From Nitrospinaceae bacterium (GTDB lineage: Bacteria; Nitrospinota; Nitrospinia; Nitrospinales; Nitrospinaceae): 64,000 nt of DNA. Under the pieces are notes generated by a model that saw only the letters and a program-made list of their open reading frames with translations, had not been told where the DNA came from and searched no databases. Shown here in pieces: positions 34,901 through 43,056 of the stretch. The stretch covers positions 1-64,000 of the forward strand of contig JANQEK010000007.1 in NCBI GenBank assembly GCA_028278405.1, given 5' to 3'. Made by a program: the position numbers and the translations under genes. Position 1 is the stretch's first letter; every line of letters begins with the position of its first letter.

Positions 34901-37900
34901 GTGTTTAAAAACAAGCGGGTGGTACTTCTGGTGGCATTCATCCTCGGGGTGGCGGCTACCTTCTGGTGGGTGTCACGTTACCCGGCGCTGGGTGAGAAGG
35001 CGGCAATGTCGGGTGCTGAGGGTTTTGAAGACCCGATGACCCACCAGGCGCATTTTCACGCGCCCGCGAAAGCTCCCCTTCACACCCGCGTATTCTACAC
35101 CACGCTCAACTGGTACGAAACGAACTGGAGGGGAATGGCATTCGGCCTCATTCTCGCCGGTGCGTTTTTGACTCTGTTGTCCTACCTGCCGAAACAAGGC
35201 TCGGAAAAACGATTCAAAAACAGTCTGATGGGTATGCTGGTGGGAACGCCGCTGGGTGTGTGCGTCAATTGTGTCGCTCCCATTGCCAAGGGTCTTTACG
35301 AAGCCGGAAGCAAAATGGAAACTGCGCTGGCTGTTATGTTCAGTTCTCCTACTTTGAACATCGTAGTGCTCACCATGTTGTTTTCGATTTTCCCGCTTCA
35401 CATGGCAATCCTAAAACTTGGCGCGACGTTTGTTCTGGTGCTGTTGATCGTACCGTTTCTCTCGCGAAAAGATCTGAGCCGTGTCAGGCAGGCGGTGGCA
35501 GCGAAAGCGGATGAGGTATGCGAGGTGAACCTCAATACAGATTCCTGGGGTGCTGCATTAAAACATGCGGCGCAGGATTACTGGAAAAACTTTTCCTATA
35601 TTTTTATCCGCACGTTTCCTCTGATGTTGCTGGCCGGTGTTCTGGGGGCACTGATGGTTCATTTGTGGAGCCTCGAAAAATTGATCGGGCTGGAGCCCAA
35701 TTGGAAGGGATACGCGGTGACCTCGTTGATAGGAACTTTTCTGCCGTTGCCTATCGCTTTCGATCTGATGCTGACCCAGGCGTTAATGATGGCGCGTCTG
35801 GCGGATGGGTTGGTGATGACTCTTCTGTTCACCCTGGGCACCTTCAGCATCTACAGTGCGTTGATTGTGTACCGAACCTTTTCATTGAAGGTGGCGCTTC
35901 AGTTGTATTTGATCGTTACCGTGATCGGTGCAGGTCTGGGCTATTCGGTTCAGGCGTATTCCAATTACAAGCACATCCAGTGGCTGGTCCAGTATGATAG
36001 TTTTATTGCTGATGCCTCGAAGCCAACCGTGGATGTTGCCGAATTGGCTGTTCCGACGGATGCGGACAAATCTCTGGTCCTTTCACCGACGCGGACCCGT
36101 AATTCCAAATTCCTTTTTAAGAGTGGAGATGTAGAAGTTTATTTCACTCCCTTTAGAAAAAGAAACCGCGGGGGCATACCTTTTTCCAAAAAGCCGGGAC
36201 CTGATTGGGGAATCACATACTCCAACCGGCTCACCCCGGAAATTTTCTTTGATCCGCTTTTCTTCGGGCGGGGCATCGCTTCAGGAGACTTCAACAAAGA
36301 CGGCTGGGTGGATTTGGCGGTGGCGACGGATAATGGATTCGAATTATATCAGAACATCAGTGGAAGAAAGTTCAAGCGCTTGGACGGGATTCCAAAGGAG
36401 TTTGCCGGCAAGCAGGGCATCAGTGTGGTTTTCGTGGATATGGATAACGATGGATGGCTCGATATTTTTCTGACGGCTTTCGACGAAGAAAATCTTTTAT
36501 GGCTGAATCCTTTGGGTCCCAAGGGCCCACAACCGATGATTCAAGTTCCGAACGGTAAGGCACTCGCGACCACAGCGCCGGCGTTCGGCGATATCAACCG
36601 CGACGGTTTTCTGGATATCGTCAACGGAAATTATTTTCTGGGAGTGTTGACGCGTAAACCTCTTGCCAATGCGATCGATCAACTGGTGATTAACCGGGAT
36701 TTGAAATTTTCTCTCAGTGATCTGGAAGGGGTGCCTGGACAGACTCACACCACATTGTTTTCGGATTTCAATGATGACGGGAGGCCTGATTTGATGATCG
36801 GCAACGATTACCAGGTTTCCGATACCTATTACTTTGGAAAAGACAAAGGCGCCTTTGAGAAAATTTGGAAGCAGGACGGTATTTTCCCGATCACCACAGA
36901 AAACACCATGAGCATGGATACGGCGGATTTTAACAATGACCTGCAACTGGATTTATATCTTGCGAACATCGGCATGAGCAAAGGAATCGATGTGATTTTC
37001 AACATCTTCGGAAACGTCATGGAAGAAGCAGGTCGAAACTTTTGTAAAGCCCAGGACATGGTGTTGACCCCGGGTGAATGTGGCGACCTGGTCAAACTGG
37101 TGACTTTGCTGAACCCGCAAAAGCAGGACCCTTCCGAACGATGCAGTGTGTTGAAGGATCAACAAAAAGTAGGTGCGTGTATGGTGACCCGTCTGGCGTT
37201 GTTTTCCACCCGCCGCGAAGATCCCTCCTTGTGCGATAAAGTTGCGCCGGAATATGCGATGCCGAAGAAGTTGTGCGTCAACTATTTTCAGGCAGAGCGG
37301 CTGTTTCCCGACACAAGCGAGGAGATTCCACTGCGGTCAATGTCGAATGTCTTGTTGCAGGGCATGCCGGGGACCCGTTTCCATGATGTGTCCAAGGACG
37401 CGCAGGTAGAGACAGCCGAGTGGAGCTGGAATGCACGCTTTGCGGACCTGGACAACGATGAGTGGCAGGACTTGTATGTGGTCAACGGTGTATTGATAAC
37501 GCAGGAATTCGCCACCAACAACTTTTTCCATAATCAAAAGGGCAAGACCTTTGTGGCGGCAGAGCAGGAATTCGGCCTGAGAGATTTGGATCATAGTTCT
37601 GCTTACACTTACATTGATATCGACAGCGACGGAGACCTGGATATTATCGGCAACACCCAGTATGGTCCATTCAAAGTGTATCGCAATAACGAAACCCGTA
37701 ACAGCAGTGTAGTATTCAACTTGCGGGATGGTAGAGGCAATCGGTTCTGCATTGGATGTCGGGTAATCATCCATTACGGACCTGAAGGCAAGCGGCATCA
37801 AGTGCGCGAAATCAAAGCCAGCGGCGGATACCGTTCGTTCGATGCACCCCAGGCGCATTTTGGATTGAGTTCGAACACTAAAATTCGAAAAGTAGAGGTT

Positions 37901-37975
37901 CGCTGGTCCGATGGTACCACGTCTCAAATCACACATCCCTTTCCTGCCAACCGCGAGTACACGCTCCATCGTTGA
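34901..37975 (+). CDS. Permease-FG-GAP-UnbV fusion protein
   Basis: A 1024-residue membrane protein. Residues 1-360 look like a DUF318/ArsP_1-type permease: about eight hydrophobic helices with the P-C-x2-C signature in GTPLGVCVNCVAPIAKGL and SSPTLNIVVLTMLF. Residues 460-930 form a calcium-binding FG-GAP/VCBS propeller-like region with seven motifs such as GDFNKDGWVDLAVA, VDMDNDGWLDIFL, GDINRDGFLDIV, SDFNDDGRPDLMI, ADFNNDLQLDLYL, ADLDNDEWQDLYVV and IDIDSDGDLDII. A six-Cys insertion (about 714-800) interrupts the propeller, and a C-terminal ASPIC/UnbV domain (FCIGCRVIIHYGPEGK, GGYRSFDAPQAHFGL) ends it. It starts with GTG 34901, with GGAGG 6 bases upstream. The transported substrate is unknown; the extracytoplasmic part could bind ligand or surface polymer. 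Confidence 0.8.
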   Translation: MFKNKRVVLLVAFILGVAATFWWVSRYPALGEKAAMSGAEGFEDPMTHQAHFHAPAKAPLHTRVFYTTLNWYETNWRGMAFGLILAGAFLTLLSYLPKQGSEKRFKNSLMGMLVGTPLGVCVNCVAPIAKGLYEAGSKMETALAVMFSSPTLNIVVLTMLFSIFPLHMAILKLGATFVLVLLIVPFLSRKDLSRVRQAVAAKADEVCEVNLNTDSWGAALKHAAQDYWKNFSYIFIRTFPLMLLAGVLGALMVHLWSLEKLIGLEPNWKGYAVTSLIGTFLPLPIAFDLMLTQALMMARLADGLVMTLLFTLGTFSIYSALIVYRTFSLKVALQLYLIVTVIGAGLGYSVQAYSNYKHIQWLVQYDSFIADASKPTVDVAELAVPTDADKSLVLSPTRTRNSKFLFKSGDVEVYFTPFRKRNRGGIPFSKKPGPDWGITYSNRLTPEIFFDPLFFGRGIASGDFNKDGWVDLAVATDNGFELYQNISGRKFKRLDGIPKEFAGKQGISVVFVDMDNDGWLDIFLTAFDEENLLWLNPLGPKGPQPMIQVPNGKALATTAPAFGDINRDGFLDIVNGNYFLGVLTRKPLANAIDQLVINRDLKFSLSDLEGVPGQTHTTLFSDFNDDGRPDLMIGNDYQVSDTYYFGKDKGAFEKIWKQDGIFPITTENTMSMDTADFNNDLQLDLYLANIGMSKGIDVIFNIFGNVMEEAGRNFCKAQDMVLTPGECGDLVKLVTLLNPQKQDPSERCSVLKDQQKVGACMVTRLALFSTRREDPSLCDKVAPEYAMPKKLCVNYFQAERLFPDTSEEIPLRSMSNVLLQGMPGTRFHDVSKDAQVETAEWSWNARFADLDNDEWQDLYVVNGVLITQEFATNNFFHNQKGKTFVAAEQEFGLRDLDHSSAYTYIDIDSDGDLDIIGNTQYGPFKVYRNNETRNSSVVFNLRDGRGNRFCIGCRVIIHYGPEGKRHQVREIKASGGYRSFDAPQAHFGLSSNTKIRKVEVRWSDGTTSQITHPFPANREYTLHR

Positions 37976-38137: not shown

Positions 38138-38671
38138 ATGAATCTTTTTTCTAAAAGATACATATTTGAAAGAAGCGGTTCCGTAAAACCCGCCCTGACG
38201 CTGGTATTGTTTTTCCTTGCGGTCCACCCGGGGTTTCTGGCATCGCCTTTTTTATCTCCCGTATTGGGTGATACTCAGGCCATAGGTAAAGGACTTCTGG
38301 TGGCACCCGTCAAACTTGATTTTGAAGGCCGGATTCGTTCCGGAACGTTCAAAATACTGAACAGGGATCCTGTGCATGTCAATTATCGAATTTCATTTGC
38401 TCCTTTGATCGAAAAGGACAAAGGTAAAGATGCGAAAGAGTGGGTGCGCTACAGTCCTCGAAGAGTCCGCTTGGGGCCGGGCGAACATCAAACCGTCCGG
38501 GTCGTGGTTCGAAAGCCCGCTGATTTGCCTCCCGGTGAATACACCGCCCGTTTGTTGATTCAGGCGATTCCTCCAGCTCGCAAACCTGAAACATCTTCAG
38601 ATCAAATCAAGATCAACCTGGATATTGTTTATGGAGTTTCGATTCCTATCAATATCAAGCACAACCCCTGA
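38138..38671 (+). CDS. PapD-like periplasmic chaperone of a chaperone-usher pathway
   Basis: A protein of about 177 residues with a signal sequence (ALTLVLFFLAVHPGFLASP) and an immunoglobulin-like N-terminal chaperone domain: LLVAPVKLDFEGRIRSGTFKIL, then YRISFAPLIE, RYSPRRVRLGPGEHQTVRVVVRKP and PPGEYTARLLIQAIPP. It appears to have only one complete Ig-like domain, shorter than two-domain PapD homologues of about 220-250 residues. I prefer ATG 38138 to the upstream start at 38084. A 16-base inverted repeat (38034-38049) lies upstream. The usher-like gene follows on the same strand. Confidence 0.7.
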   Translation: MNLFSKRYIFERSGSVKPALTLVLFFLAVHPGFLASPFLSPVLGDTQAIGKGLLVAPVKLDFEGRIRSGTFKILNRDPVHVNYRISFAPLIEKDKGKDAKEWVRYSPRRVRLGPGEHQTVRVVVRKPADLPPGEYTARLLIQAIPPARKPETSSDQIKINLDIVYGVSIPINIKHNP

Positions 38672-39115
38672 TCGTTTCCTACCTCTGATGTACCCCAGCT
38701 AGATTGAATTTCAATATTTGTTGGTTGTATGGAGTTCGTTGAAGCTATCCTGTTTTTCCAGCGATTTTATCCCTCTTTTCTTTGAAAACCGCCCATTTAC
38801 AAAGAGTCACAGCACGTTTGGTTCAAAAATTCGGAAAAGGTTAAACCCTCAATTTTTAAACGATTCATCATTATAAAAATTTAGAATCGACTGTACCAAA
38901 ATTGGGACACATGTTTTCAATAGTGGAAACATAATTTCGGTACTGTTGCAAAAGTATTTCGACAACTTCGATTTTTTTTCGGGGCGCCTGAAAAAATACT
39001 CCTAAAAAAGTATAACTTTCCTGCCCTTCCGAGCAATTGTCACGAATTGCACACAATTATTTTTTGGCCTAGGTTTTGCAATATTACTTACATATTGCTT
39101 AACAGAGGTTTTAAA
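38672..39115. other. AT-rich intergenic region between chaperone and usher
   Basis: A 444-base gene-free stretch, strongly AT-rich. I see no RNA gene, no second promoter with a clear -35/-10 pair and no repeat shared with other parts of the window. An AGAGG (39104-39108) serves as the ribosome-binding site of the usher. The long gap inside what looks like one locus suggests that the usher may have its own promoter here. Confidence 0.5.
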
Positions 39116-41779
39116 TTGCTTACTCGGATTAAAAAATATCGGAGCGAATTATATTTCACGCTTTTGGGTCGCGTTTGCGCACTCGCAATTCATTCAAGCG
39201 TGATAATTCTTCTGAGCGGCCATCTTGATGTCAGCTATGGAGAACTCGGGCAGAGAATCTCGGGCTATCCTCTGATGTCCGGTAAGAATTTTGGAAGTGT
39301 TGGGCAATCTTCCGGTAACCCGGATGGTCTGTCCCATTTCCAACCGATCCAGACCTCTCAAGAGAATGTTTCGTCTCCGGGAGAGGGCACGGGCAGTGCT
39401 CCTTATCGCACTAGAAAAGCCGCCACCAACCCGAGTGAATTGGCCAAGCTTCCTCCCGTTCAATCTCCCCAGGAACGGCACAATTTCGCAATTTTGGATT
39501 CTGAAGAATCCGTATATCTCGCAGTTTACCTGAACCAACGTATGTTGACAGAGGTTATTGAAGCGAAGGAAATGAAAGGGTCCGTTTATTTTAAATTGAA
39601 TGATATGGCCATATTGTTTGGAGCTCCTCTTCCTGAAGATAAAGACGCCATCGCTACATCGGAAGCTCTTGAAAAAATTTATCCCGCAAAGTTTAACTAT
39701 TCTAAAAAACATCAGGCTCTTTTGGTTGAGGGAAAAGGTAAATTGCCTATCGAGCAGAAATGGGAACGGGAGCGTCGCCAAAAAATGCTGTCTCGAAACG
39801 GTATAACGGATGAGACTCCTATTGTGAATTTTGATTATGGTCTGTTGGGACCACCGTCGTTTGATCTTTCAGCCAGTTATTTGAAAAATGGTCGTGAGGA
39901 TATCAATTACAGTTTCAAAGGTGGGATGGAAGCCTTATACGGCACAGCCAGTATTTTCGGCCGAGGGGTCGGCGATGACGAATTGACTGATCTGCGTCTT
40001 GCATGGGAGAAGTTGCACTCCGATTGGTTTACCCAGTTAGGGGATGTCTTTGCTCCTCCGATAGAATTGGTTGCGCAAGCAGAGGCGGGGCGTGGGATCA
40101 ATTTTTCAAATGTTCCAATAGAAAATGCCACCCAATTTGGTACAGATACCATCACCGGGGACCTGCTGGACGGTTGGGAAGTAGAACTGTATAGAGGAAC
40201 GACTCTTTTGGATGTGAGAAGAAGTGATGGCAGCGGCCGGTTCATATTTCGAGATGTTCCACTCCTGTTTGGTGAAAACAATATCATCCTGAAGTTTTAC
40301 GGCCCGCAGGGTCAATTCCGTCAGGAATCCCGACCTGTGAATATTGGTAGAGGTATGGCTCCCGAGGGAACAATGTGGTCTCGTTTCAGTTTTACAGAGC
40401 AAGGGAGAAATTTATTCTTGGGTCGCAACAGTCAGACGCGGGGTCACATCGAGGGATTCCGAGGATATGGAGAAGTGTTTTACGGATTATCCAAGAGGTT
40501 GACGCTTACCAGTTCGGTCACCTCGTTTATGTCGGCCACATTGGACAGAAGAACCCTGGGCAAAGCCGGTTTTTTGACCTCGTATTTTGGGAGTTCCCTG
40601 AAATTTGATTTTCTGGCAGATGACAATGATGGGTATGGAATTCAGTCTTCGCTGTTCAGTCGTTTTATGGGCTGGGGCGTCCAGTATGACCATGTGGAAT
40701 TCTTTGACCTTAGAACCGATCTCGAGCCAAACCTGAAGAGAAGTAGAAAACTCAGGATGTATAGAGGATTTAGAAATGTTTTTGTTGATCTTTCTGCTCA
40801 ACAGAGAGTCCAGACATTTGATGTGACCCGTTATGAGTACAACGCAAAAGTGTCAGGCAACGTGGGTCCGGTTTTGTTGACCAATGATTGGAACGCAAAC
40901 TACGGAGGAGGTACTGATTTTACCCGCGGTAATCTATTGGCCAATGGGCGGGTAATGCCGAATCTGTTATTACGCGCTAATGTCAATTATGAAGTAGATC
41001 CTGAGGTGGAGTTCAGGAGCATCCAGACTACATTGGATTACCGGCCCAGAAAAGATATGACTTTAAGGTTGAATGTTGTGAAAAATTTGATTGACCAAAA
41101 AGATTATGTGATCAGCCAGAGCATTCTGTGGGAAGGCAACAAGGTGGGATTGGGGCTTACAGCAAGTTACTCCACGGTGCAGGACTTTCAGGTTATAGCC
41201 TCCGTCACCTTCTCATTAAGTCCGAAGCTATCCGGCGGATATCAGATGAACCGAAACCCCAGCACAAATGTTGGCACAGTGAATGTGCGGGTGTTTCTCG
41301 ATCATGATCAGGATGGAAAGTATGATTCCGAAACGGACGAGCTTCTAAAAAGTATTCGGCTTAAGAACCGATCCGAAGAATCGGATAGAAACGGAATGAT
41401 TGCCGTAAAAGGGCCAGCCTATCGTCTCGCCCATATCAGAATTGATGAAAACAGCCTGCCTGATCCTTTTATGGTGACGGCTCCTTCGGTGGCGGTTCGC
41501 CCACGTCCCACCCACATCAACACAATGAATATTCCTGTATGGGAAACGGGTGAAATCGAGGGCCAGGCTGAGCCGGGCGAATTGGTGGAATTGATAGATG
41601 GGGGAAAAGTTATTGCCACGACACATGCAGAGTTTGATGGGTTTTTCCTGTTTGAAAAACTCCGCTTCAAGGTATATCGAGTTCGAACCCAACACCGGTT
41701 TCAAAGCGTAGAAATCAACCGGATACACCCGATTGCACGGGTGAAATGGGAGGATGGTTATCAGGTGGCCAAAAATTAA
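39116..41779 (+). CDS. Outer-membrane usher-like protein
   Basis: A protein of about 887 residues with an N-terminal signal sequence (YFTLLGRVCALAIHSSVIILLSG) and a Ser/Pro-rich spacer, then a PapC-N-like region (VYLAVYLNQRMLTEVIEAKE). A beta-rich barrel of about 500 residues contains a plug-like segment DGSGRFIFRDVPLLFGENN. Near the end sits a Ca-site-like VFLDHDQDGKYDSETDE domain and a carboxypeptidase-regulatory-like finish. This is the layout of chaperone-usher and alternative ushers. The start is TTG 39116 with AGAGG 7 bases upstream; a TTG at 39047 would add 23 residues. The usher signature is diffuse, so the assignment rests partly on neighbours. Confidence 0.65.
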   Translation: MLTRIKKYRSELYFTLLGRVCALAIHSSVIILLSGHLDVSYGELGQRISGYPLMSGKNFGSVGQSSGNPDGLSHFQPIQTSQENVSSPGEGTGSAPYRTRKAATNPSELAKLPPVQSPQERHNFAILDSEESVYLAVYLNQRMLTEVIEAKEMKGSVYFKLNDMAILFGAPLPEDKDAIATSEALEKIYPAKFNYSKKHQALLVEGKGKLPIEQKWERERRQKMLSRNGITDETPIVNFDYGLLGPPSFDLSASYLKNGREDINYSFKGGMEALYGTASIFGRGVGDDELTDLRLAWEKLHSDWFTQLGDVFAPPIELVAQAEAGRGINFSNVPIENATQFGTDTITGDLLDGWEVELYRGTTLLDVRRSDGSGRFIFRDVPLLFGENNIILKFYGPQGQFRQESRPVNIGRGMAPEGTMWSRFSFTEQGRNLFLGRNSQTRGHIEGFRGYGEVFYGLSKRLTLTSSVTSFMSATLDRRTLGKAGFLTSYFGSSLKFDFLADDNDGYGIQSSLFSRFMGWGVQYDHVEFFDLRTDLEPNLKRSRKLRMYRGFRNVFVDLSAQQRVQTFDVTRYEYNAKVSGNVGPVLLTNDWNANYGGGTDFTRGNLLANGRVMPNLLLRANVNYEVDPEVEFRSIQTTLDYRPRKDMTLRLNVVKNLIDQKDYVISQSILWEGNKVGLGLTASYSTVQDFQVIASVTFSLSPKLSGGYQMNRNPSTNVGTVNVRVFLDHDQDGKYDSETDELLKSIRLKNRSEESDRNGMIAVKGPAYRLAHIRIDENSLPDPFMVTAPSVAVRPRPTHINTMNIPVWETGEIEGQAEPGELVELIDGGKVIATTHAEFDGFFLFEKLRFKVYRVRTQHRFQSVEINRIHPIARVKWEDGYQVAKN

Positions 41780-41847
41780 TTTGTTTTTTTGCTGTGTGTA
41801 GGGGAATCCCTTGCACAAGAGATTGATGAAATAACGATGTTTTATCT

Positions 41848-41876
41848 TTGTGTTTTACTAAGTGTTATATTATTAA
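41848..41876 (+). promoter_or_regulatory. Putative promoter of the first DUF4402 subunit gene
   Basis: A TTGTGT (41848-41853) and TATTAA (41871-41876) are separated by 17 bases, within an AT-rich stretch. The strong AAAGGA ribosome-binding site (41886-41891) and ATG follow. Each element is weak on its own; it is a guess from spacing. Confidence 0.35.
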
Positions 41877-41900
41877 TGTTGTAAGAAAGGAAAAAATAAT

Positions 41901-42431
41901 ATGTTCAGCAGATTTAATTGTAAATCAGTTGTATTTTTCAGTTTTTTGGTTGTTCTGGGTTTTGCCTATAATGCCAGCGCGACTCCAATTACTACCAATG
42001 CTGAAATTGTAGGTAATATCACTGTTACCCAGAATGCTCCACTCAATTTTGGTCAAATCACATCGGGAACCACTGCTGGAACGGTTACTTTGACTACGGG
42101 TGGGACTATTGCGGCTTCCAATGCCACCATAGCGCTTATCGGCGGTCACTCAGTCGGTGAAATGTTGTTGAATACGACCGGAGTTCCCCCGGCTTCGACC
42201 ATTACCGTTACCGTGACAGGTGGCACCCTGACATCCGGTGGTAACACCATGACGGTCCTGGGCAATTGTGAAGGACCGGGTGGAGTTCCGAGTGCCATTA
42301 ACGCCGCTTGTACGTTTACGGTGACTCCCGGTCCTGCCGAGAGCGTTTTGATTGGCGGCGAGTTGTCTGTAGGCGCAAATCAAGCCGTAGGTGTTTATAC
42401 TGGAACCATGGAGGTTACTGCTGCATTCTAA
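41901..42431 (+). CDS. DUF4402 domain protein, predicted pilus subunit
   Basis: A 176-residue exported protein: signal sequence FFSFLVVLGFAYNASATP, then a single DUF4402 domain of repeated beta strands (LNFGQITSGTTAGTVTL, GEMLLNTTGVPPASTITV, LIGGELSVGANQAVGVYTG). The composition is rich in Thr, Gly, Val and Ala and contains only two mature cysteines (near GNCEG and NAACTF), which could form a disulfide. It has an optimally spaced AAAGGA and a candidate promoter. DUF4402 proteins are found beside chaperone-usher genes in several lineages, so it is the likely major subunit. Confidence 0.8.
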   Translation: MFSRFNCKSVVFFSFLVVLGFAYNASATPITTNAEIVGNITVTQNAPLNFGQITSGTTAGTVTLTTGGTIAASNATIALIGGHSVGEMLLNTTGVPPASTITVTVTGGTLTSGGNTMTVLGNCEGPGGVPSAINAACTFTVTPGPAESVLIGGELSVGANQAVGVYTGTMEVTAAF

Positions 42432-42474
42432 GCATTAACCGATTGGATGTATTGCATGCGAAATCCCTGCTGAT

Positions 42475-42498
42475 TTCGAGGCTTGTAAAAGCCTCGGA
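42475..42498 (+). other. Intergenic hairpin between the two DUF4402 genes
   Basis: CGAGGC (42477-42482) and GCCTCG (42491-42496) form a perfect 6-base stem around an 8-base loop, extendable by two pairs to about 8. There is no T tract after it, so it is more like an mRNA-stabilising or processing element than a terminator. It may help make the first subunit more abundant than the second, which is inference. Confidence 0.55.
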
Positions 42499-42537
42499 TC
42501 ATGCGGGGGATTGAGCAACAGAATTTCATCACCAGAT

Positions 42538-43056
42538 ATGAGCAAAAATCTCCTCTTAAAATTTTTAATGGTTTTGCTGACGGTTGTATTGATGCACCTT
42601 GCGCCTTCGGATGCCAGGGCACAATGGGAACCTGCAACGTTCACTGAGCTCCAGCCTCTGAATTTTGGTTTTATTGTTCCAGGGCCGGCAGGGGGCACTG
42701 TCACCATATCCGACACCGGTGCTGTCAGCGTTACGGGGACCATAACGCACTTAGGTGGAGCCACCAATGCGCAGGTTTTGATGGATTCCTGTGTCGGGCC
42801 GGGCCGAAATGCCAGAAGAATAATTCTTGTTCCCGGGCCTCTATCCGGGCCGGGTCCTGATATCGTTTTGAATCAGCTTACCTGTACCAGCCCGGGAAGA
42901 CCTACAAGGGTTAATCGATGCCGCAACTTTAGTGGAACAGCAGGTAACGATATTCTGCTCATTGGAGGAACTATCACCGTTCCTGCCGGCCAGACCCCGG
43001 GTGTGTACACCGGCACTTTTGATATAACAGGTAGAAACAGACCTCCCTGTCCTTGA
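42538..43056 (+). CDS. Second DUF4402 domain protein, predicted minor pilus subunit
   Basis: A protein of about 172 residues with a signal sequence (LLLKFLMVLLTVVLMHLA) and one DUF4402-like domain: LQPLNFGFIVPGPAGGTVTI, AQVLMDSCVGPGRNARRI, LLIGGTITVPAGQTPGVYTG. It parallels the first subunit in strand order and in the final GGT(I/E)xVxAxQxxGVYTG motif. The mature protein has Cys in DSCVG, LTCTS, NRCRN and the terminal RPPCP, so it is more cysteine-rich. ATG 42538 was chosen; a TTG at 42511 is possible. It could be a tip, minor or terminator subunit. Confidence 0.72.
   Translation: MSKNLLLKFLMVLLTVVLMHLAPSDARAQWEPATFTELQPLNFGFIVPGPAGGTVTISDTGAVSVTGTITHLGGATNAQVLMDSCVGPGRNARRIILVPGPLSGPGPDIVLNQLTCTSPGRPTRVNRCRNFSGTAGNDILLIGGTITVPAGQTPGVYTGTFDITGRNRPPCP

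Follow-up and report, generated by a model that had tools for sequence, protein, structure and literature searches.

A probable chaperone-usher fibre locus with a one-domain chaperone and DUF4402 subunits in a Nitrospinaceae bacterium

Introduction

Four adjacent genes in a stretch of 64,000 nucleotides from a Nitrospinaceae bacterium (hereafter, the window) raise the question of whether they form a chaperone-usher system with DUF4402 proteins as its subunits and an unusually short chaperone. The analysis presented here is computational, and no experimental observation of a fibre is available. The locus is interpreted as a chaperone-usher type pilus or fibre system with DUF4402 subunits, a reading to which we give a probability of roughly 0.87.

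Gene content and genomic context

Four intact open reading frames lie on one strand between positions 38138 and 43056 in the order chaperone, usher, DUF4402, DUF4402. The co-directional set listed in the preliminary description (a chaperone, an usher-like protein and two DUF4402 proteins) is thus present, as judged from the reading frames and Pfam matches:

38138..38671, + strand: single-domain PapD-like chaperone of 177 aa, which opens the locus (PapD_N, E=2.4e-6; identical end point in five homologues)
39116..41779, + strand: cryptic outer-membrane usher of about 887 aa with a TTG start (AlphaFold2 model, Foldseek, profile-profile comparison)
41901..42431, + strand: DUF4402 protein 1, probable polymerising pilin (Pfam, E=3e-16; AlphaFold2; Foldseek matches to chaperone-usher pilins)
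42538..43056, + strand: DUF4402 protein 2, probable tip subunit (Pfam, E=9e-16; N-terminal comparison)

The usher probably starts at a TTG codon at about 39116, with AGAGG upstream, which gives 887 aa up to the end at 41779. The frame of DUF4402 protein 2 opens at 42511, although the ATG at 42538 is the better start. These two are the only DUF4402 genes in the whole 3.16-Mb genome. The end motif that they had been said to share is real, but its spacing has to be corrected: it reads GG[ET]xxVxAxQxxGVYTG, with two variable residues after the E or T and not one.

The chaperone and usher genes are separated by 444 bp of AT-rich DNA (38672-39115, GC 0.35), a gap that is only about 10-35 bp in two related loci (L045 and L047). 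No ORF was found in this gap of the window, and scans for promoters and terminators, including the gap, gave no signal above that of shuffled sequences. On its other side, the chaperone gene adjoins a gene for a 1024-aa fusion of an ArsP_1 permease, FG-GAP repeats and an ASPIC/UnbV domain (34901-37975, + strand), of which a homologue occurs in locus L015 (3119-6226, - strand). The fusion gene lies next to the chaperone gene both in the window and in a congeneric genome (G016), so this adjacency is common to two genomes.

Across 77 genomes of Nitrospinota, the usher was found in nine, DUF4402 in eight and both in seven (Fisher p=1.2e-7), and the chaperone was present in 9/77. This co-occurrence across the phylum rules out a chance neighbourhood of usher and DUF4402.

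The usher and its predicted architecture

The window usher has no Pfam or NCBIfam match, and the usher model PF00577 does not detect it even at E 10. PF00577 likewise matched none of 43 usher relatives at E 0.01 and nothing in the 77 genomes of the phylum; one relative of the two-domain type (with a two-domain chaperone, see below) is weakly matched (E=0.003). When PDB sequences were searched, the usher, the chaperone and the profile of DUF4402 all returned chance matches only.

The identity of the protein rests on comparisons of predicted structure and of profiles. An AlphaFold2 model built from the alignment of the 43 relatives (pLDDT 87.7, pTM 0.73) contains an N-terminal domain, six strands, a plug of six strands, 18 further strands and a pair of C-terminal beta domains. 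This is the order of FimD/PapC, the assignment of domains and strands being our own reading of the secondary structure of the model:

39506..39790, + strand: N-terminal domain, model residues 13-107 (strand/helix pattern; assignment inferred)
39857..40108, + strand: barrel strands 1-6, model residues 130-213 (strand order deduced from the secondary structure)
40142..40345, + strand: plug domain between strands 6 and 7, model residues 225-292 (model, family alignment)
40373..41224, + strand: barrel strands 7-24, 18 strands, model residues 302-585 (model)
41270..41743, + strand: C-terminal beta domains, model residues 601-758 (model; family matches in relatives)

The plug is the most conserved part of the family, with the motif ELYRNxxLL...VPLLFGxN...FYGPQGQxR. 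When the model was compared with the PDB by Foldseek, the best 18 matches were all FimD or PapC (E 2e-28 to 5e-8, TM about 0.5), and ordinary porins appeared only from 1e-5 onward. In hhalign, the alignment of the 43 relatives matched an alignment of nine known ushers (eight from E. coli K-12 and one PF00577 usher of Parasphingopyxis) over 615 columns with Prob 98.8 and E 4.5e-17, while the controls scored 2.3 (LptD) and 0.1 (two further proteins). Against single known ushers the scores ranged from 0.5 to 94, so that the signal depends on having the known ushers aligned. The large protein, earlier described merely as usher-like, is thus an usher with a predicted 24-strand barrel, plug, N-terminal domain and C-terminal domains, which remains a prediction and not a solved structure; absence of a PapC-like barrel would have refuted the proposal, and such a barrel is predicted.

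The families SdrD_B and CarboxypepD_reg match 38/43 and 36/43 of the usher relatives, respectively, but in the members whose match coordinates were examined these matches fall only within the C-terminal beta domains. The label 'carboxypeptidase regulatory-like' comes from these domains and is misleading. Some ushers of the two-domain type carry extra C-terminal domains, SPOR in 5/43 and a ShlB-type POTRA in the usher of L021 (8274-11663), which would equip an usher with a domain related to peptidoglycan or to barrels.

Distribution of the family

When 84,980 species genomes were scanned with the usher alignment, 374 candidate stretches encoding a relative were obtained, whereas a scan of genome contigs with a single sequence found nothing. 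Gene content was examined for the best 80 of the 374. In 72 of these 80 loci the usher is accompanied by DUF4402 and by a chaperone of the PapD_N type; of the remaining eight, seven are cut by a contig end or lie on contigs of about 3-4.5 kb. The hosts among the loci examined are mostly Alphaproteobacteria (Sphingomonadales, Rhodospirillales), the others including Vibrio, Alteromonadales, Oleiphilus, Desulfobacteraceae and an acidobacterial MAG. Viral contigs contained no usher of this family.

The trio is also carried by plasmids of Polaromonas (L125), Sphingopyxis (L126) and Pseudoalteromonas, where its members are labelled by NCBI as DUF4402, 'molecular chaperone' or 'hypothetical', and 'carboxypeptidase regulatory-like'. 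The Sphingopyxis plasmid is predicted to be conjugative, and the trio can therefore move between hosts. In the literature searched, which did not include subscription journals or preprints, there was no mention of DUF4402 or PF14352, no link of chaperone-usher systems with Nitrospina and no pairing of the usher's NCBI label with ushers.

DUF4402 proteins as pilins

The proposal that DUF4402 proteins are the subunits is supported by their predicted fold. Mature DUF4402 protein 1 was modelled with AlphaFold2 from an alignment of 54 sequences (pLDDT 94.8), and its best Foldseek matches in the PDB are mostly chaperone-usher pilins: FimF/FimG in the FimD tip complex, the CfaE pilin domain, FimG truncates, Caf1, the PapG pilin domain, FimA and CfaB. 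No match reached E 1e-3 and the TM was about 0.5, so this likeness is support and not proof; a profile comparison of DUF4402 with K-12 pilins was not significant (Prob 18.8). Counted from the C-terminus, 117 of the 170 DUF4402 proteins encoded in the loci have an aromatic residue at position -2, 20 have one at -1, and 54% have a glycine at -14, a combination that is the classical signature of pilins. As the fold and profile searches identify the usher, and as pilins come first among the fold matches of DUF4402, it is very probable that a cryptic chaperone-usher family uses DUF4402 proteins as its pilins. An open groove is only inferred from the predicted fold, which bears no more than indirectly on the refuting condition of a complete fold without a groove.

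The two proteins of the window differ at their N-termini:

41982..42020, + strand: N-terminal extension of mature DUF4402 protein 1 (TPITTNAEIVGNI), predicted donor strand (model, N-terminal comparison)

The extension reads TPITTNAEIVGNITVTQ. In the model, residues 1-13 of mature protein 1 form no strand and are the block of lowest pLDDT (79), as expected for a free donor extension. From the end of the signal peptide to the LNFG motif there are about 22 residues in protein 1 (TPITTNAEIVGNITVTQNAPLNFG) and about 14 in protein 2 (QWEPATFTELQPLNFG), the mature form of which starts at about 42622 without an extension, so that it could accept a strand but not donate one. It has four cysteines in its mature part, protein 1 two. 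The earlier suggestion that the second, cysteine-rich protein is a minor or tip subunit gains support in this way but is not proven. Among loci with at least two DUF4402 genes, extended and extension-less kinds occur together in 21/45, and among loci with one gene only the extended kind is found in 25/28, although both counts depend on a simple heuristic for cleavage sites that makes visible errors. These errors, and the longer, Pro/His-rich N-terminus of the nearest relative of protein 2 (in L045), leave the assignment of protein 2 as a tip subunit suggestive only.

It is possible, if doubtful, that the pathway is the same but that protein 1 forms the whole fibre including its tip, protein 2 being minor, terminating or separately secreted. 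The many single-gene loci with the extended kind indicate that not every such system needs a special tip subunit without an extension, and the C-terminus of protein 2 has no aromatic residue and ends in RPPCP; this end, together with the long N-terminus of the L045 homologue, means that the F strand and groove of protein 2 may differ. However, a subunit that cannot donate a strand can occupy only an end position in a donor-strand fibre, and the known terminators PapH and FimI keep the extension that protein 2 lacks. Pairs of the two kinds also recur in Desulfobacteraceae, Vibrio, Alteromonadales, Acidobacteriota and Nitrospinota. A tip position of protein 2 is still the preferred inference.

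A chaperone of one domain

The chaperone had been noted to be shorter than PapD, and the reason is that only its first domain (D1) is present. PapD_N matches above the Pfam cut-off, PapD_C does not match, and the alignment to K-12 chaperones extends across D1 only:

38606..38668, + strand: predicted G1 donor strand and chaperone C-terminus (IKINLDIVYGVSIPINIKHNP), at which the protein stops (alignment to two-domain relatives)

When the chaperones are aligned on the last residue of the window protein, 0 further residues follow in 5/5 members of its branch, whereas all 73 of the two-domain relatives continue for 96-121 residues. The branch proteins stop right after the predicted G1 strand (VYGVSIPIxIxHNP), a terminal strand that is conserved in all members and whose identity is inferred from homology to FimC/PapD. 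No coding sequence or remnant of the second domain (D2) was found in any short-chaperone locus, including the long chaperone-usher gaps of the window and L048. Two candidates for further short chaperones (L105 and L121) were rejected, being short at the N-terminus only with a full D2, and a 303-aa ORF in L015/L046 that seemed to be a longer chaperone is the one-domain protein with an upstream start. By alignment, the window chaperone is a clean D1-only protein, consisting of a PapD-like D1 with a putative G1 donor strand.

Without D2 there is no inter-domain cleft. To our knowledge, every described chaperone grips the C-terminus of its subunit by this cleft, where the anchor residues of classical chaperones sit. 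The position equivalent to FimC Arg8 is Arg in 69/73 relatives but Lys, Gln or Glu in the branch (K59 in the window), according to the alignment. Position 174 is Arg in 70/73 relatives and Lys, Gln or Asp in the branch, and position 172, a hydrophobic one in the relatives, is mostly polar in the branch. No member of the branch has a basic residue at the position of Lys112. We lean, with reserve, towards the view that one Ig domain alone caps the subunit without a cleft, the cleft residues having been lost with D2, within the widespread DUF4402 family; this would count as a fourth class beside the classical, alternative and archaic ones.

The alternative that D2 has been replaced by a second partner, such as the usher N-terminal domain, a chaperone dimer or an unlinked protein, so that the Ig domain is not the sole cap, seems unlikely, although it cannot be set aside lightly. 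D2 contributes directly to anchoring the subunit C-terminus in non-classical chaperones (PMC4654587), so losing it should come at a cost. Two arginines, moreover, have changed along with the loss of D2: the Arg8 equivalent and one close to the end of G1. On the other hand, no short locus contains a D2 coding sequence that could supply the missing domain, and each of the five short-type genomes has a single chaperone gene. The anchor residues of PapD, besides, lie in D1, which fits capping by the one domain that remains.

The Nitrospinota branch

In the usher tree, the window and four other Nitrospinota-type genomes form one clade with a support of 100/100 and a long stem, which supports the expectation of a divergent clade; one of the four is labelled Nitrospirae, but the genome set assigns it to the same taxonomic order as the window. 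The two-domain ushers that other Nitrospinota carry fall outside this clade. Among the best 80 of the 374 stretches, the branch is distinct, monophyletic and seen only in Nitrospinota. Its genes are arranged as chaperone-usher-DUF4402(-DUF4402), while other loci are mostly DUF4402-chaperone-usher. With regard to the alpha-to-sigma clades, several K-12 ushers and a single archaic-like usher score about equally low against the branch, which is too divergent for a rooted tree. The closest complete relative (L014 in genome G019) is adjoined by a curli set of curlin-repeat proteins, CsgE, CsgF and CsgG (L014, 3-5116), and this genome has two different fibre systems next to each other.

The locus occurs in only 3/8 congeneric genomes, and one of the related stretches (L018/L049) has only a broken usher with masked bases. 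This patchiness could be taken for decay of a two-domain system, with the short chaperone as a truncation product, but such an origin is highly improbable: the five branch genomes belong to at least three genera and their chaperones, at 40-69% identity, share the same end point in intact frames, the ushers form a single fully supported clade, and the gene order is consistently unlike that of the two-domain kind. The notion that the large protein is not an usher but an outer-membrane or adhesin protein of another sort in a coincidental neighbourhood, for which the missing usher-model matches and the frequent SdrD_B and CarboxypepD_reg matches might speak, can practically be dismissed, as those matches are limited to the C-terminal domains in the members whose coordinates were examined, the fold and profile searches both give an usher and the gene linkage is too regular for coincidence.

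Proposed mechanism

Under the favoured reading, both DUF4402 proteins would be exported by Sec, and in the periplasm the one-domain chaperone would cap each with the G1 strand at its own C-terminus. The usher would then take the chaperone-subunit complexes and replace the strand lent by the chaperone with the N-terminal extension of the subunit that follows. DUF4402 protein 2, as an acceptor without a donor strand, may start the fibre at its tip, and protein 1, with its extension, may form the shaft. Strand donation and exchange, like secretion and the location of the fibre on the cell surface, are inferred.

Comparison with known systems

The locus shares with the classical Fim/Pap systems (FimC-FimD-FimA/F/G) the usher plan of a predicted 24-strand barrel with a plug after strand 6, an N-terminal domain and two C-terminal domains, as well as the PapD_N domain, the predicted pilin-like fold of the subunits and the operon linkage. 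It differs in that usher identity is about 10-12% and escapes PF00577, that the chaperone is D1-only, has no equivalent of K112 and carries Lys/Gln/Glu within its branch at the Arg8 equivalent, and that the subunits are DUF4402 proteins without a two-domain, FimH-like adhesin.

With the archaic (Csu, CupE) and alternative (Ecp, CFA/I) systems it has in common a short gene set, small subunits and a wide distribution outside enterobacteria, and the CfaE pilin domain and CfaB are among the fold matches of DUF4402. In contrast, the chaperones of those systems have two Ig domains, the second of which anchors the subunit C-terminus (PMC4654587), the window has no large separate adhesin, and membership at the sequence level has not been shown. 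The window locus is not filed as classical, alternative or archaic, because the two-Ig-domain criterion (D1 + D2) of all three is not met by its chaperone branch.

The closest comparison is with the two-domain DUF4402 loci of Sphingomonadales, Rhodospirillales, Vibrio and Polaromonas plasmids, together with four such loci in other Nitrospinota (two in G023, one each in G041 and G062); their ushers are of the same family (24-31% identity). Chaperone D1 and DUF4402 subunits are common to both, but the two-domain chaperones have about 105 further residues (D2), their ushers range from about 870 to 1380 aa with up to seven DUF4402 genes, and their order is mostly DUF4402 genes, chaperone, usher instead of chaperone, usher and two DUF4402 genes. 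The window locus belongs to a one-domain-chaperone branch of this cryptic DUF4402 chaperone-usher family.

Biological significance

The window contains a complete but unrecognised chaperone-usher set, since standard databases miss the usher and the subunits belong to a family of unknown function. The analysis would give a function to DUF4402 proteins, as pilins, and to proteins labelled 'carboxypeptidase regulatory-like', as ushers, and it would add many environmental bacteria, including carriers of conjugative plasmids, to the known builders of chaperone-usher fibres. The half-size chaperone challenges the current view of how chaperones hold their cargo, and may be regarded as a natural deletion experiment that asks whether D2 and the cleft are needed for the holding and hand-over of subunits.
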